From positions 1-23,092 of the IMG/VR virus record IMGVR_UViG_3300020020_000159: DNA of 23,092 bases; one strand, written 5' to 3'. The DNA comes from a virus. Shown one piece after another: positions 2,434-22,762 of this stretch (within the stretch, counting starts at the first letter, position 1; every line of letters starts with the position of its first letter). Under the pieces are notes generated by a model. That model was not told the DNA's origin, ran no database searches, and worked only from the letters and a program-made list of their open reading frames with translations. Made by a program: the position numbers and the translations under genes.

Positions 2434-2886
2434 ATGTTGCAATATCCGAAGGAACAGCGAGATCGAAGAACCAGGCGGAACCAAAGCTCCAAGAATTCCA
2501 AGAAACTCCACGGGCAAGGATTGGCTTGTGCAAGAGTGATTGCGAGCAAGGATGATGCTGAGATTTTGAATGCCTGGAAAGAATTAGATATTCCTGTTGT
2601 GATTGATCCAGCTGTGCGTAGGCAGATTGAAATGGAAGCATCCCAGCAGGCGTTTCATACGATGATCCGGGAAAAACTCCAGAATGCTCGCAATGGCAAG
2701 ACGGACCTGACGCACACATTCTGGGAACATGAAGACGGATCTTGCACTCAGGAATTCTCAGACGGAACGAAAACCGTTTTCCTGCCTGCAGCATGGAGAA
2801 GGGCTAAACACAGTCTCCAAAACGGAGGAGGCTTGTCCTGGTGTGGCTGGGAGAGTGACGACGGCGTCACGATAATCCGGGAATAG
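2434..2886 (+). CDS. Unrecognised 150-residue protein in a low-GC island
   Basis: I do not recognise this protein. The N-terminal 30 residues are very basic (RDRRTRRNQSSKNSKK) and probably disordered. The middle (residues 35-90) looks like mixed helix, with DDAEILNAWKELDIPVVIDP. The C-terminal part is Trp- and Gly-rich, containing SWCGWESDDG. There is no signal peptide or membrane span. Base composition is unlike the neighbours: one sampled 60-base line counts about 42 percent G+C, and codons end often in A or T. The start is uncertain; the ATG at 2434 has only a weak GAGA upstream, and a GTG about 100 bases downstream is possible. With the divergent HNH gene it forms an accessory block between terL and the head genes, so it may be cargo. 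A decayed gene cannot be excluded. Confidence 0.5.
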   Translation: MLQYPKEQRDRRTRRNQSSKNSKKLHGQGLACARVIASKDDAEILNAWKELDIPVVIDPAVRRQIEMEASQQAFHTMIREKLQNARNGKTDLTHTFWEHEDGSCTQEFSDGTKTVFLPAAWRRAKHSLQNGGGLSWCGWESDDGVTIIRE

Positions 2887-2897
2887 GACTAACCATC

Positions 2898-3239
2898 ATG
2901 CCGCGCGTATTCGTCAACGGGACCATCCTGGCGGGCCAGTCGCTATCGGGGCCGCTCGACTGTCGCAGCGGCGCGCCGTTGCTGCTGTTCCTGCCGACGC
3001 AGTGGACGTCCTCGCGCATTTCCTACCAGCTGTCGCCTGACGGCGTGACGTACTGGGATCTGTACGATCGGACCGCCAAGGAAATCGCCGTCAATGTCCG
3101 CGCCGGCACCGTGGCCAGGCTCAATCCTGAATGGACCGAAGTGGCACTCGGCTGTTGGCTGAAAATCCGGTCCGGCTCCAGCGACGGGCCGATCGTGCAA
3201 ACGGCAAACCGCGACTTTAAGCTTCTAGTCGAAACCTAA
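2898..3239 (+). CDS. Conserved small phage protein, probably structural
   Basis: This 113-residue protein has a beta-rich pattern: AGQSLSGPLDC, PTQWTSSRISYQLSPDGVTY, and a C-terminal LKIRSGSSDGPIVQTANRDF. I recognise this as a small conserved family found among head and tail genes of alphaproteobacterial phages (a hydrophobic start, a central SPDG-x-TY-x-DLYD strand pair, then LKIRSG). Its molecular role is not known to me. It has no signal peptide or membrane segment. Composition returns here to the GC-rich style of the phage, unlike the ORF just upstream. An AGGA lies about nine bases before the ATG. It directly precedes the protease-capsid gene with an 11-base gap, so it belongs to the head operon. 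A minor head or decoration protein is a reasonable inference from position only. Confidence 0.65.
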   Translation: MPRVFVNGTILAGQSLSGPLDCRSGAPLLLFLPTQWTSSRISYQLSPDGVTYWDLYDRTAKEIAVNVRAGTVARLNPEWTEVALGCWLKIRSGSSDGPIVQTANRDFKLLVET

Positions 3240-3250
3240 AGGCACCCACC

Positions 3251-5212
3251 ATGTTGAACCGGGCTTACAGCTTGCTTGAAATCAAGCAGGTGGACGATGA
3301 CTCACGCGAGATCACCGGCTGGGCCACGACGCCGACGGCCGATCGCATGAACGACGTGGTCGAGCCGGACGGCGCCAAGTTCATGCTGCCGATCCCGCTC
3401 TTGTGGCACCACAACCAGGGCGACCCGATCGGCCACGTTACGGCGGCACGGGTTTCCAGGGCCGGCATCGAGATCACGGCGAAGATCGGAAAGGATGTCA
3501 CGGCAGAGATTGAGCGCTATTGGCGATTGATCAAGGCCGGCTTGGTCAAGGGTTTGTCGATCGGGTTCACGTCGATCGAGCACGAGCTCATTAAGGAAAC
3601 CAGGGGCATTCGCTTCAAGAAATGGAATTGGCTCGAGCTCAGTGCCGTGACCATTCCGGCGAATGCCACCGCTAGCATCACCATCATCCGTTCGATCGAC
3701 ACTGCGCAGCGGGCCGCGTCAGGCCAGACGCTGGGCAGCGTCGTTTACCTCAACCCACCGGGCGCCTCCGGACGATCAACACCAGATGTCCCGGAGGACA
3801 ACATGAAAACCACTGCCGAGCAGATCACTGCTCTCGAGGCCAAGCGGTCGGCTGACGCCGCGCGCATGGATGCCGTCATGCAGAAAAGCATCGACGAGGA
3901 CAGGACGTCGGACGCGGCCGAACAGGAAGAGTTCGACACGCTCTCATCCGAGGTCGAGGCGATCGACAGCCAGCTGGTGCGCCTGCGCAAGCTGGAAACC
4001 GCCAAGGCGATCACGGCCAAGCCCGTAGTAAAGGCCGAGACCGCCCGTGAGGGGTCGCTGGTGCGCGGCGGCTTCTCGCCGGTCTACGCGGTGCCGGAAC
4101 AGCCTATTTCAAAACAGGACTATGTCTGGCGCTCGCTGGTCTGCGCGGTGAAGGCGCATCACACCAAGCAGAACCCGTTCGATATCATGAAAGCCGAGTA
4201 CGGCGACGACGAGCCGACCCGCGCGGTGTTGTCGTTCATCACCAGGGCGGCCGTCATACCGGCCGACACCGTGACGGTGGGCTGGGCCGACAAACTGGTC
4301 GCGACATCGATCCAGGACTGGTTCAACGCACTGATGCCGAATTCGGTTTATCCTTCGCTGGCAGCCAAGGGTGCCAAGTTCTCGTTCGGCCGAAATGGCA
4401 TTGTCACGATGCCATCGCGGGCGGCAACGCCGACCATCAACGGATCGTTCGTGGCCCAGGGCGCGCCAATCCCGGTGAAGCAGGCCGCGTTCACCTCCAT
4501 CAGTTTCACACCGAAAAAGATGGGCGTGATCTCGACCATGACACGCGAGATCGCCGAGCATTCGACGCCGGCGATCGACGGGCTAATCCGCCAGGCCATC
4601 ATCGAGGACACCAACGTCGCAATCGACAGCGTGCTGCTCGATGCGACCGCGGCCACCACGACGCGGCCGGCCGGCCTGAAGTCCGGCGTCTCGGCCACCA
4701 CGGCAACCGCGGGCGGCGGCATCGCTGCCCTGATCGGCGATATCCGCGGCCTGACCTCGGCGCTGATCACCGGTACCAACGGCAACCTGCGTTCGCCGGT
4801 GTGGCTGATGAACCCAGGTGACGTGCTGGCGGCTTCGCTGTTGCCGGCCACCGCCGGCGGCGGCGAATTCCCCTTCAAGACTGAACTGACCGGCGGAACG
4901 CTGCAGGGCATTCCGGTGATCAGTTCGTCCAACGTCACCGCCGACACCATGATGCTGGTCGACGCCGCCGATTTTGTTTCGGTGACCGGCGACAGCCCGC
5001 GGTTTGATGTCAACGACCAGGCGACGTTGCACATGGAAGACACCACGCCGTTGCAGATCGCCACCGGCGTCCAGGGCTCGGGCGTGCTGGCCACGCCGAC
5101 CCGTTCGCTGTGGCAGACCGACTCGATCGGCATCCGGATGCTGTGGGATCTCAACTGGGGTATGCGCCGCACCGGCGTGGTTGCATGGACCCAAACCATG
5201 ACCTGGAACTAG
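3251..5212 (+). CDS. Fused prohead protease and HK97-fold major capsid protein
   Basis: This 653-residue polyprotein joins two genes that are separate in HK97. Residues 1-150 are a U35-type prohead protease: REITGWATTPTADRMNDVVEPDGA, LLWHHNQGDPIGHV (His53/54), GLVKGLSIGF (Ser103) and WNWLELSAVTIPANA (Glu129) give the expected His-Ser-acid set. Residues 185-255 are charged and helical, matching the capsid delta (scaffold) region. Residues from about 280 to the end are the capsid, ending IGIRMLWDLNWGMRRTGVVAW, a typical HK97-fold finish. The protease would cut off the scaffold after assembly. An AAAGG site lies eight bases before the ATG. An internal in-frame ATG at 3803 with its own GGAGG can give capsid alone (separate entry). 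An intrinsic terminator follows the stop. The fusion itself is known in other phages. Confidence 0.92.
   Translation: MLNRAYSLLEIKQVDDDSREITGWATTPTADRMNDVVEPDGAKFMLPIPLLWHHNQGDPIGHVTAARVSRAGIEITAKIGKDVTAEIERYWRLIKAGLVKGLSIGFTSIEHELIKETRGIRFKKWNWLELSAVTIPANATASITIIRSIDTAQRAASGQTLGSVVYLNPPGASGRSTPDVPEDNMKTTAEQITALEAKRSADAARMDAVMQKSIDEDRTSDAAEQEEFDTLSSEVEAIDSQLVRLRKLETAKAITAKPVVKAETAREGSLVRGGFSPVYAVPEQPISKQDYVWRSLVCAVKAHHTKQNPFDIMKAEYGDDEPTRAVLSFITRAAVIPADTVTVGWADKLVATSIQDWFNALMPNSVYPSLAAKGAKFSFGRNGIVTMPSRAATPTINGSFVAQGAPIPVKQAAFTSISFTPKKMGVISTMTREIAEHSTPAIDGLIRQAIIEDTNVAIDSVLLDATAATTTRPAGLKSGVSATTATAGGGIAALIGDIRGLTSALITGTNGNLRSPVWLMNPGDVLAASLLPATAGGGEFPFKTELTGGTLQGIPVISSSNVTADTMMLVDAADFVSVTGDSPRFDVNDQATLHMEDTTPLQIATGVQGSGVLATPTRSLWQTDSIGIRMLWDLNWGMRRTGVVAWTQTMTWN
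3793..3805 (+). promoter_or_regulatory. Internal ribosome binding site and start for unfused capsid
   Basis: Inside the protease-capsid gene, GGAGG at 3793-3797 stands five bases before an in-frame ATG at 3803 (Met185 of the fusion). Initiation here would give a 469-residue protein starting MKTTAEQITALEAKRSADAA, exactly where the capsid delta domain begins. The protease domain ends about 35 residues earlier, and the linker between is rich in Gly, Ser and Pro. This would let the ribosome make many capsid copies per protease fusion. The site and frame are seen directly; its use is inferred. Confidence 0.7.
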
Positions 5213-5220
5213 CCATTAAC

Positions 5221-5247
5221 GAGCCGCGCCAACGCGGCTCGCTTTTT
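5221..5247 (+). terminator. Intrinsic terminator after the capsid gene
   Basis: A perfect 8-base-pair stem (GAGCCGCG at 5221-5228 with CGCGGCTC at 5233-5240) closes a CCAA loop and is followed by GCTTTTT (5241-5247). It begins eight bases after the capsid stop and 28 bases before the next start. The next gene lies in the same direction with its own ribosome site and no evident promoter, so the terminator is probably partial or is bypassed by late antitermination. Confidence 0.8.
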
Positions 5248-5274
5248 CCAATTCTCAAACAGGAGGCCATCGAC

Positions 5275-5673
5275 ATGGCACAGACACCAGCCAAGACCAA
5301 GGACCACCCCGACGTCCAAGCGATGCAGAGGCAGCGCGAGGAGATCAACAAGTCGAACGAGGAAGCGATGCAGCGGATGGAGTCGACACAGCCGACGCCG
5401 ACCCAGGAGGAAAGCGATCTCTTCCGGCTCGGCGTCGCCGTCGACGAAAAAGAACCCGATGGTTCGGGGCCGACCATCATTCGCACCCTCACCGTGGCCA
5501 ACGTGCCGCTCGGCGCCGAGCCGCCGGATATCACCGATCCTTACTCCGCCGAGGGCAAGGCCGCGCAGGAGCGGTCCACGCGCGAGCGGAACGAACAACG
5601 GGAAAGAACTGAGCGCGAGAGGGCCGAGCGCGAACGCGCAGCAAAAGCCAAGAGGGACGAGGCGCGCGGCTAA
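5275..5673 (+). CDS. Charged coiled-coil protein between capsid and portal
   Basis: This 132-residue protein is very hydrophilic. Its ends are rich in Gln/Glu/Lys (residues 10-45) and Arg/Glu (about 100-130, repeated RER/AER units), suggesting helices or coiled coil around a short central hydrophobic piece with TIIRTLTVANVPLG. I chose the ATG at 5275 because GGAGG at 5262-5266 precedes it; upstream in-frame starts would overlap the capsid gene and the terminator. The stop TAA is followed directly by the portal ATG. The position between capsid and portal suggests a head protein, perhaps a scaffold accessory or portal partner, but I recognise no family. There is no signal peptide or membrane span. 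Confidence 0.7.
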   Translation: MAQTPAKTKDHPDVQAMQRQREEINKSNEEAMQRMESTQPTPTQEESDLFRLGVAVDEKEPDGSGPTIIRTLTVANVPLGAEPPDITDPYSAEGKAAQERSTRERNEQRERTERERAERERAAKAKRDEARG

Positions 5674-7053
5674 ATGCGCATTCTCGGACTGCAAATTCCA
5701 TTCACCGGCGAGAAGGCGATGTCCTCCTTGCCGGTGGATGCCAACTATGCCGGGCCGATCGTGCGCGAGTCGTATGCCGGCGCCTGGCAGCAGAACGTCA
5801 CCATCTCAACCGACAGCGCGACGTCGTTTCATGCCGACTTCGCCTGCAAAACCCTGATCGCCCGCGACATCGGAAAACTGCGGCTGAAGCTGGTCGAGAA
5901 GGACGACGACAACATCTGGAGCGAGGTGGTCAACCCGGCCTATTCGCCGGTGCTTCGCCGCCCGAACGATTACCAGACGCATAATCAATTCTGGGAATGC
6001 TGGGTGCTGTCGAAACTGTCGCGCGGCAACACCTATGTGCTGAAAGAGCGCGACAACCGCAACGTGGTCACCGCGCTGCATATCCTCGATCCCAACCGGG
6101 TGCAGCCGCTGGTCGGCGACGGCGGCGCGGTGTTCTACCGGCTGTCGAGCGACAATTTAGTCGGCACCGGCGAGATCACGGTGCCGGCGCGCGAGATCAT
6201 CCACGATCGCATGAACTGCCTGTTCCATCCGCTGGTCGGCACGCCGCCGGTGTTTGCGAGCGGCCTGGCCTCGATGCTCGGCCTCAACGCGCAGAAGGCG
6301 TCGGCGCTGTTGTTTCAGAATGCTTCCACGCCTGGCGGCATCATCACGGTCCCCGGCGAGGTCAGCGAGATCCAGGAACAACGCGCCAAGGAGCAATGGG
6401 AAAACCGTTTCTCGCGCGGCAACCTCGGCCGCGTTGCCATCCTGTCGGCCGGCGCGAAATACGAAAAAGTGGCCATGACCCACGTCGAAGGCCAGATGAT
6501 CGAGCAATTGAAATGGTCGGCCGAGGTGGTCTGCAGCGTCTATCATGTGCCACCCTACAAGGTCGGCGTCGGCGCGTTGCCTTCCTACAACAACGTGCAG
6601 GCGCTCAACGTCGAATATTATTCGCAGGCGCTGCAAAGCCACATCGAGGAGATCGAGGAGCTGCTCGACCACGCGCTCGGCATCGGCTGGGGCGAAGGGA
6701 TCGGCACCGAGTTCGATACCGAGAACCTGCTGCGGATGGACAGCGTCACCCAAATCACCGCGATTCAGCAGGCGGTCGGGGCCGGCGTGATGGCGCCGAA
6801 CGAGGGCCGCGCCAAGCTCGACCTGAGGCCGGTCGACGGCGGCGAGTCGCCGTACCTGCAGCAGCAGAACTATTCGCTGGCGGCATTGGCAAAACGCGAC
6901 GCACAGGAAGATCCGTTCAAGGCGAATGCGCCAGCGGCGCCGGCCGCGCCTGACGCCGAAGAACCGGCCGAAGAGCCGGTGGCAGCCAAGGAAGAAACCA
7001 AGTCGATAGATGATCTCTACTGGATTAACGATCTGTTTCCGAGGGCCGCGTGA
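5674..7053 (+). CDS. Portal protein (HK97 family)
   Basis: The 459-residue protein matches HK97-type portals (Phage_portal, PF04860) in length and landmarks. These include [20 protein letters not shown] near the start, the stem-region [67 protein letters not shown], and the late segment [17 protein letters not shown][16 protein letters not shown]. The portal forms the dodecameric DNA channel at one capsid vertex and docks terminase and connector. The C-terminal 50 residues are Ala/Pro/Glu-rich and likely flexible. The start follows the previous stop with no gap, and the stop overlaps the collagen-like gene (TGATG). The gene lies after the capsid gene rather than before protease and capsid as in HK97, an unusual order. 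Confidence 0.95.
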
Positions 7054-7685
7054 TGGATCTGCGGGAAGCGTTTGAGACCGTCAGGAAATATATCGACGCA
7101 GAGATAGCCGTCCTGAAATCGCGCGCGCCGGTGCCGGGGCCGCCGGGTGAACCGGGACCGCCAGGCGACCGGGGTCCACCCGGCGAGCCTGGCGAGAAGG
7201 GCGATCGCGGCGAACCAGGGCAGGCAGGCGACCGCGGCGAAAAGGGCAGCCCTGGCGAACCCGGACTCACGATCAAGGGCGAGCCTGGCGAGAAAGGCGA
7301 CACTGGTCGCGACGGCCGCGATGCCGCCGATCTGTCGCTGCTGAAAGGCTACATCGCCGAGCAAATGGCGGCGGGCATCGCCGAGATGGTCAAGGCGATA
7401 TCGATCACCTCGCCGGACTTCGGCCGCACGCTGCAGGTTGCGATCGGCGACCAGATCCACGAGATCAAAACCGCCATCCCGCTCGATCAGGGCGTATGGA
7501 CCGAACGCGGCTTTGCCGCCGGCGACGCCGTCAGCCACGGCGGATCGCTGTTCATCGCAAAGGCCGAGACATCAGCCAAGCCTGGCAAGTCGGACGACTG
7601 GCGCCTCGCCGTCAAGCGCGGCAACGACGGCCGCGACTATCGCGCCGACGACAAGCGCAACCCCGAACCGATCAGGTTCAAATAG
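7053..7685 (+). CDS. Collagen-like protein with C-terminal CBM-like segment
   Basis: The ATG at 7053 overlaps the portal stop and gives 210 residues; a GTG at 7050 is the alternative. Residues 1-25 form an amphipathic helix. Residues 29-92 are Gly-X-Y repeats: 15 uninterrupted triplets (GPP, GEP, GDR, GEK types), a two-residue break (IK), then five more. Residues 95-140 are helical. Residues about 148-190 contain [18 protein letters not shown][10 protein letters not shown] followed by a Trp, a layout seen in small carbohydrate-binding-like modules of phage tail proteins. It probably trimerises as a rod. Collagen-like phage proteins are usually fibres or head fibres; here the gene sits between portal and connector, so a head- or neck-attached fibre is inferred. 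It could be mistaken for a tail fibre if context were ignored. Confidence 0.85.
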
Positions 7686-13851: not shown

Positions 13852-14451
13852 ATGATGGTCTCAATTGCTCATTCTCCAAAGGAAGCAAAGCAGCAAGGAT
13901 TGACCCGATATTTTACGGGCAAGCCTTGCCCCAAGGGACATGTCGCGGAACGGATGGCTGTCAACTCGGACTGTGTTGGCTGCATGAACGATCGCAACAG
14001 TCTCCGCTATTCATTTAAAGAGGACTATCGCGCACGCACCAAATCGCGAATGAATAAATCATACGACGCCGATCCGGAAAAGTTTCGTCAGCGAGCTAAC
14101 GATCGGTATCTCATGGAGCCGGAGGTTATTAGGTCTCGCGTAAAGCGGTACCAAGAAAGGAATCCCGAGAAGTGCCGTGCCTGGAGAAGGGCCAAACACG
14201 CGCGCAAACAACAGGCTCCTGGCGCATTTAGCAGGGAAGATGTTGAACGAATATTCAAGGAGCAATCAGGCAGGTGCTTGTGTGGCTACGATCTTAACCT
14301 GAGCTATCACATAGACCACAAAACGCCCTTCTTGCGCGGCGGCTCTAATTGGCCGGAAAACATTCAGTTGCTTTGTCCGAAATGCAATATGAACAAGCAC
14401 ACCAAAACGATGGAGGAGTGGCTTCCATCCGCTTGGTGGAAGCAGTCTTGA
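13852..14451 (+). CDS. Free-standing HNH (homing-type) endonuclease
   Basis: This 199-residue protein has two zinc-type modules. Residues 18-50 carry GLTRYFTGKPCPKGH and CVGC (Cys26, His30, Cys41, Cys44), an N-terminal finger frequent in phage homing nucleases. Residues 60-120 are a basic helical linker with repeated YDADPEKFR/RNPEKCR-type units. Residues 141-185 form the HNH site: CLCG, YHIDHKTPF (His153, Asp155, His156), WPENIQLL (Asn170) and CPKC plus His183. It lies flush between a double TAA and the next ATG, and its GC content is lower (one sampled line 45 percent) than that of distant neighbours. That suggests a mobile gene that entered by homing. ATG at 13855 is an alternative start. 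Confidence 0.88.
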   Translation: MMVSIAHSPKEAKQQGLTRYFTGKPCPKGHVAERMAVNSDCVGCMNDRNSLRYSFKEDYRARTKSRMNKSYDADPEKFRQRANDRYLMEPEVIRSRVKRYQERNPEKCRAWRRAKHARKQQAPGAFSREDVERIFKEQSGRCLCGYDLNLSYHIDHKTPFLRGGSNWPENIQLLCPKCNMNKHTKTMEEWLPSAWWKQS

Positions 14452-21811: not shown

Positions 21812-21969
21812 GCGAGGCAATCGTCGAGTATCGCATCGAGGTCATCGGCAGCGAGGTGACGGTGGTCATCCTTGCCAGCGACGATGACGCCGCGCACCGG
21901 ATGGCCGATCTGCTGGATCGTCAATTCAAAAGCGGCGTCGTCGACGAGGAGGATCCGGATGAGCCGTAG
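21808..21969 (+). CDS. Small acidic protein in the lysis block (53 residues)
   Basis: The ORF starts at ATG 21808, overlapping the preceding stop (ATGA), and ends at TAG 21967-21969, overlapping the endolysin start at 21959. It has two strands (EYRIEVIGSEVTVVILAS), a helix with DDDAAHRMADLLDRQF and an acidic end (DEEDPDEP). Codon choice is GC-rich like its neighbours and the overlaps are tight, which argues that it is translated. No function can be assigned; there is no membrane span. Confidence 0.6.
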   Translation: MSEAIVEYRIEVIGSEVTVVILASDDDAAHRMADLLDRQFKSGVVDEEDPDEP

Positions 21970-22762
21970 AGCAAAGGCGACACAGAAACTGCTGGATCAG
22001 GTCAACGAGTCCTGCCCGGCGCGCAACAAGGGCAGCGATGGCTGGATCGGCGATGCAGCCCATGCGAGTACTAAATCGGACCACAACCCCAACAGCGCCG
22101 GCGTGGTGCAGGCGCAGGACATCACGCACGATCCGAAGAACGGGTTCGACAGCCACAAGTTCGCTGAGTACCTGCGCACCCACAAGGACAAGCGCATCAA
22201 GTATGTGATCTCGAACCGCAAGATTTTCTCCGGTCCTGCCGGACCGCAGCCGTGGGTCTGGCGCTCTTACTCAGGCAAGAACCCGCACGATGCCCATGTC
22301 CATGTATCGGTTGGGGACACCGCGGCGCTTTATGACAACGCAGCGGCATGGGAGATCCCGTTCACCACCGGGCTGCCCGACCTCGATGCGCCCGACATTA
22401 CCTTGCCGGTGCTGAAGAAGGGGTCGAAGGGTATCTATGTCGCGATCCTGCAGGTGCTGCTGGGCTTCACCAATGGCGAGATCGACGGCGACTTCGGCAA
22501 CATGACCGACGGCGCGCTGAAGCAGTTCCAGCGCGAGCACAAGCTGGGCGCCGACGGCATCTGTGGCACCTATTCCTGGCGCGAACTGATGCGACCGTGG
22601 GCCAAGGAAATCGGGTTGCTGCCGACCGATCCCAAGCAGAAGCTAACCGAGATGGCGCTGATCGCGCAAAAGACCGGATCGACGGCAGCGGTCGACGAAT
22701 TGGTCAGCGCGTTCGTGGTGGTGCTGGAGGACATCCTGCCGCCGGGGTTCATCGTTAAATAA
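21959..22762 (+). CDS. Endolysin: M15-type peptidase with peptidoglycan-binding domain
   Basis: The start at 21959 has GAGGAGGAT just upstream and gives 267 residues; it overlaps the 53-residue gene. The N-terminal domain has TKSDHNPN (His42), AQDITHD (Asp54) and NPHDAHVHVSV (His113/115), the zinc-ligand pattern of M15-like D-Ala-D-Ala or L-Ala-D-Glu peptidases in phage lysins. Residues about 150-212 are a peptidoglycan-binding domain (PF01471 type): LKKGSKGIYVAILQVLLGF, then GEIDGDFGNMTDGALKQFQ and DGICGTYSWREL. The C-terminal 50 residues are helical with a hydrophobic stretch near the end. There is no signal peptide, so export is expected through a holin. Confidence 0.88.
   Translation: MSRRAKATQKLLDQVNESCPARNKGSDGWIGDAAHASTKSDHNPNSAGVVQAQDITHDPKNGFDSHKFAEYLRTHKDKRIKYVISNRKIFSGPAGPQPWVWRSYSGKNPHDAHVHVSVGDTAALYDNAAAWEIPFTTGLPDLDAPDITLPVLKKGSKGIYVAILQVLLGFTNGEIDGDFGNMTDGALKQFQREHKLGADGICGTYSWRELMRPWAKEIGLLPTDPKQKLTEMALIAQKTGSTAAVDELVSAFVVVLEDILPPGFIVK

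Follow-up and report, generated by a model that had tools for sequence, protein, structure and literature searches.

In bacteriophage lambda, the head proteins C and Nu3 are read in one frame and share one stop codon, and an internal start yields the protease-free product (annotated C 4418-5737, nu3 5132-5737). In HK97, the protease gp4 and the capsid protein gp5, the latter including its delta domain, are encoded by two separate genes, with the protease gene lying directly before the capsid gene at a gap of 2 nucleotides (nt). Gifsy-2 carries a tripartite protease-scaffold-capsid gene in a single open reading frame (ORF), in which the protease is of the ClpP type; to our knowledge, internal starts have not been established for this gene. 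Finally, the phage PAJU2 has, in one account, been described as having an autocatalytically cleaved protease-capsid fusion. Here, we analyzed a homologue of the PAJU2 gene found at positions 3251-5212 (plus strand) of a 23,092-base record of an uncultivated virus (IMGVR_UViG_3300020020_000159, termed the window). This ORF of 653 amino acids (aa) fuses a prohead protease, a linker, a delta domain and an HK97-fold major capsid protein. It has the features of a lambda C/Nu3-like nested gene, namely an in-frame internal start preceded by a ribosome-binding site of its own, and a common stop codon. We conclude, with a probability of roughly 0.88, that ORF 3251-5212 represents two nested in-frame genes with one stop, which would produce a majority of capsid precursor and a minority of protease fusion.

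The putative second gene extends over positions 3803-5212 (plus strand), from Met185 to the stop codon, and would encode a capsid precursor alone of 469 aa. The original prediction, made from the DNA letters, had placed a GGAGG five bases upstream of the in-frame ATG at 3803 and this ATG at the beginning of the capsid delta region, and both points are borne out. The GGAGG occupies positions 3793-3797 (plus strand) and is separated by the 5-nt spacer ACAAC from the ATG at 3803-3805, which encodes Met185. In an AlphaFold2 model the disordered linker ends at about residue 186 and delta-type helices begin at residue 188. The calculated Shine-Dalgarno duplex of Met185 (-9.5 kcal/mol) ranks first among the 44 in-frame ATG, GTG and TTG codons beyond the first 20 codons. 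The upstream start is preceded by a weak Shine-Dalgarno motif, AAAGG at 3238-3242 (plus strand), which lies 8 nt before it and has a duplex energy of -3.2 kcal/mol.

About 290 loci were collected from four scans of viral contigs, one scan of bacterial genomes and annotated phages. The protease profile and the delta N-terminus profile both matched 239 of them, of which 191 are fused in one frame and 48 split. Each of these 191 fused homologues, in which a delta domain is detectable, has a start codon within three codons of the Met185 position; here the junction start was defined as whichever start codon lies closest to the homologous position, a definition that slightly favours finding one. Further statistics were calculated from 108 representatives, whose mutual kinship means that the p-values overstate independence. 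At the internal start, the mean Shine-Dalgarno energy is -8.94 kcal/mol. The 1473 other in-frame ATGs have a mean of -2.60 (Mann-Whitney p about 1e-54), and synonymous shuffles one of -6.73 (z -10.4). The motif persists although 90 different pentapeptides precede the start, and each of the three codon phases occurs (81, 20 and 6 cases). The start codon is ATG in 105 representatives and GTG in three, so that Met changes only to GTG. Moreover, nucleotides +4 to +12 after the start contain 45% A, compared to 20% overall, in genes of high GC content. The AAA:AAG ratio at these positions is 37:18 versus 688:2146 elsewhere (p 3e-11), and other internal Met codons lack this preference (13:26). As read from the sequences, the Shine-Dalgarno motif, the start codon and the A-rich codons are nucleotide-level marks of translation initiation rather than of protein function, and the diversity of peptide contexts and lineages carries more weight than the p-values.

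The site and the start codon, whose retention in close homologues was the check attached to the original prediction, are kept in close, medium and distant homologues. In a divergent group (L012-L031), which is about 40% identical and has a different delta domain, the boundary Met was present in 17 out of 17 members inspected. All 13 Microbacterium phage proteins annotated as 'major capsid and protease fusion protein' have an in-frame ATG with a Shine-Dalgarno motif, and the length of their linker varies.

The internal start also matches the first codon of the separate capsid gene in split relatives. In the 48 split loci, the capsid gene opens at the counterpart of Met185, in many cases via a 4-nt ATGA overlap. 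Split protease and capsid genes are found in the Moraxella phages Mcat7 and Mcat9, in the Stenotrophomonas phage SOVA965 and in prophages of Acinetobacter, Caballeronia, Paraburkholderia, Devosia, Sphingomonas and others. On a protease-domain tree, which is a quick tree from a short alignment, parsimony counts 18 changes between the fused and the split state, and well-supported branches carry at least five; the start has therefore been kept through fusion and fission. The median site strength is -10.0 in fused and -5.9 in split genes, a comparison that still contains lineage effects. A greater strength in fused genes is what one would expect if initiation at an internal site has no stop codon to couple with. 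Sequence comparison establishes both start sites and their conservation, and shows that the internal one is homologous to the initiation site of stand-alone capsid genes.

We infer from these observations that the internal start is used, and propose the following course of events. Ribosomes starting at 3251, with its weak Shine-Dalgarno motif, would produce a minority of the 653-aa protease-delta-capsid fusion, while free 30S subunits would load at ATG 3803, with its strong motif, and produce a majority of the 469-aa delta-capsid precursor. The two products would co-assemble via their common delta and capsid domains, by which the procapsid would receive a limited, tethered dose of protease. 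During maturation, the protease would then remove the delta domains and itself. The original prediction, that a single ORF could yield both a protease-carrying fusion and a shorter, abundant precursor, is thus supported, and relative initiation would set the capsid:protease ratio.

Several observations, in addition to the lenient definition of the junction start, weigh against this proposal. Within the window, 51% of the synonymous shuffles of the ORF yield an equally good site, meaning that its codon choice alone is not significant. Since shuffling reproduces the window site half of the time, the case must rest on the relatives; chance is excluded by the sequences of the 108 representatives, not by codon choice in the window alone. 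Part of the internal site could lie within a mild hairpin (minimum free energy -14.8, z -1.49), and comparing the RNA structure at both starts of the window ORF gave nothing decisive. Out of 103 representatives, 69 have a stronger internal than upstream site; in about a third the upstream site is stronger, so the argument from the ratio is not universal. The internal sites of the divergent group are weaker, many of them at about -3 to -5, and a few fused members have nearly no Shine-Dalgarno motif, such as L119 at -0.9.

The same data can be set against four other explanations. All capsid subunits could be made as a fusion from which the protease cleaves itself, with Met185 being a mere residue of the polyprotein. 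This would agree with the published description of the PAJU2 homologue and with the retention of His54 and Ser131. It would also mean that every one of several hundred subunits carries a protease, a difficulty that a conserved internal start removes. Moreover, such a polyprotein leaves unexplained why the Shine-Dalgarno motif is kept in changing peptide contexts, why GTG is the sole substitute for Met, why codons 2-4 are A-rich and why the capsid gene of split relatives starts at the same point; we consider it very unlikely. Even less probable is that the site is a relic, an old stand-alone capsid start left unused after a recent in-frame fusion. Split relatives do exist, and the fusion state changes often on the tree. 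However, a relic should decay, whereas the site persists in fused lineages whose mutual identity is only 35-45%, and its strength in fused genes exceeds that in split genes.

Two further explanations appear the least likely of all. The motif could slow elongating ribosomes, allowing the protease to fold before the capsid is synthesized, and its position at a domain boundary within a disordered linker would suit such a pause. Pausing, however, would require neither a correctly spaced start codon, nor the GTG substitution, nor A-rich early codons, and in split genes the site serves as a start. Alternatively, an internal promoter could give rise to a capsid-only transcript of its own, which would be the main source of the short protein, as is the case for herpesvirus proteases (UL26/UL26.5). 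The same two products would be expected, but the conserved element is a ribosome-binding site. A search for sigma-70-like promoters in positions 2850-5700 found none; other promoter types were outside this search. The dual-start gene remains the reading that we prefer.

The layout of the fused protein is supported by several lines of evidence. The S78 protease domain comprises residues 1-137 (3251-3661, plus strand) according to Pfam, alignments and AlphaFold2. Peptidase_S78 matches residues 48-151 with 48.3 bits (curated cut-off 21). His54 and Ser131 are invariant in alignments of 12 and 40 homologues and are presumably catalytic, by correspondence to HK97 gp4. The following linker (3662-3802, plus strand) is disordered, poorly conserved and ends at the internal start. 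In the AlphaFold2 model, which has a modest mean predicted local distance difference test score (pLDDT) of 64, the protease is folded up to about residue 137 and residues 137-186 have a pLDDT below 50. A helical domain, with long delta-type helices at residues 188-215 and 222-254, is predicted from residue 188 onwards, the position of an N-terminal delta domain. This scaffold-like domain begins at 3803 (3803-4012, plus strand), and positions 193-275 of the family profile match residues 3-82 of 9gyi, a solved stand-alone capsid protein. Because of these domain limits and the 9gyi match, we place the boundary between protease-linker and delta at Met185. Phage_capsid matches residues 385-581 with 46.3 bits (cut-off 24.2), and Foldseek, using the same modest model, recovers the HK97 and R4C capsids with E values of about 1e-7 to 1e-8. 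Sequence searches of the PDB for a solved protease-capsid fusion returned separate capsid proteins only. The full-length match to phrog_617 (residues 2-652, E 4e-114) identifies the protein as a fusion of the PAJU2 type; its score against the NCBIfam protease/capsid fusion family NF045541 is 62.9 bits, below the curated cut-off of 525. In two relatives, L010 and L025, the protease and early delta domain are closely similar to those of the window ORF, but from about residue 265 onwards the capsid part belongs to a different type. It appears that capsid domains have been exchanged behind a conserved protease-delta module.

The ORF is preceded by a terminase gene and small ORFs and followed by the portal gene. 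Directly after the capsid stop codon lies an intrinsic terminator with a 9-bp stem followed by CTTTTT (5220-5241, plus strand). This strong terminator separates the stop codon from the next gene, and HK97 is also annotated with a terminator after gp5. Because it follows the stop codon, the protease-capsid/capsid pair may form one expression unit. Elsewhere in the window, a collagen-like protein with a GPPGEPG repeat (Pfam Collagen, 7050-7685) is encoded directly after the portal gene, an HNH endonuclease gene (13852-14451) is inserted among the tail genes, and a probable endolysin with a peptidoglycan-binding domain is found at 21872-22762. An ORF on the minus strand between the terminase and head genes (1999-2328) shows an HNH-like CxxC...HH pattern and has no Pfam match. 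Scans with Rfam and for tRNAs gave no match, and neither did a plasmid search.

The original prediction had also suggested that an internal start in this family might be undescribed. This stands within the open literature that we searched, in which no description of such a start in protease-capsid fusions was found; subscription papers were outside the scope of this search. We consider it somewhat more likely than not that protease-capsid fusions in two or more widely separated tailed-phage groups, the proteobacterial PAJU2-like and the actinobacterial Microbacterium phages, are generally dual-start genes rather than polyproteins, and that the strength of the internal Shine-Dalgarno motif sets the number of protease-tethered subunits. 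A dual start would give a rule for the dose of protease during capsid assembly that can be tested directly. Many phages carry annotated protease-capsid fusion genes, and an internal start would correct where many of the annotated capsid proteins begin.

How, then, does the window ORF compare to the described systems? It has the protease family and the capsid fold of HK97 gp4/gp5, where two separate genes take the place of the fusion, and, like Gifsy-2, it holds protease and capsid in a single ORF, with a different protease. Two ClpP-type protease-scaffold-capsid fusions that are hits of NF045541 (L298 and L300) have an in-frame ATG with a Shine-Dalgarno motif near codon 221; among the ClpP-type fusions checked for a dual-start design, these being the only two readable cases, there was no clear common pattern. 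PAJU2 is homologous over the whole length (37% identity), shares the gene order, including the downstream portal gene, and shows the same internal start with AGGAGG, but its gene is annotated as a single fusion without an internal start. By analogy, nested in-frame head genes have their clearest precedent in lambda C/Nu3, whose way of dosing the protease the proposed dual start resembles. The two systems differ in that the lambda protease belongs to S49 and that of the window to S78, and the start of Nu3 scores weakly by the same Shine-Dalgarno measure (-2.7). Moreover, the short product of lambda, Nu3, is a separate scaffold and the capsid is encoded by a third gene, E, whereas the short product of the window ORF would combine the scaffold-like delta domain with the capsid itself.
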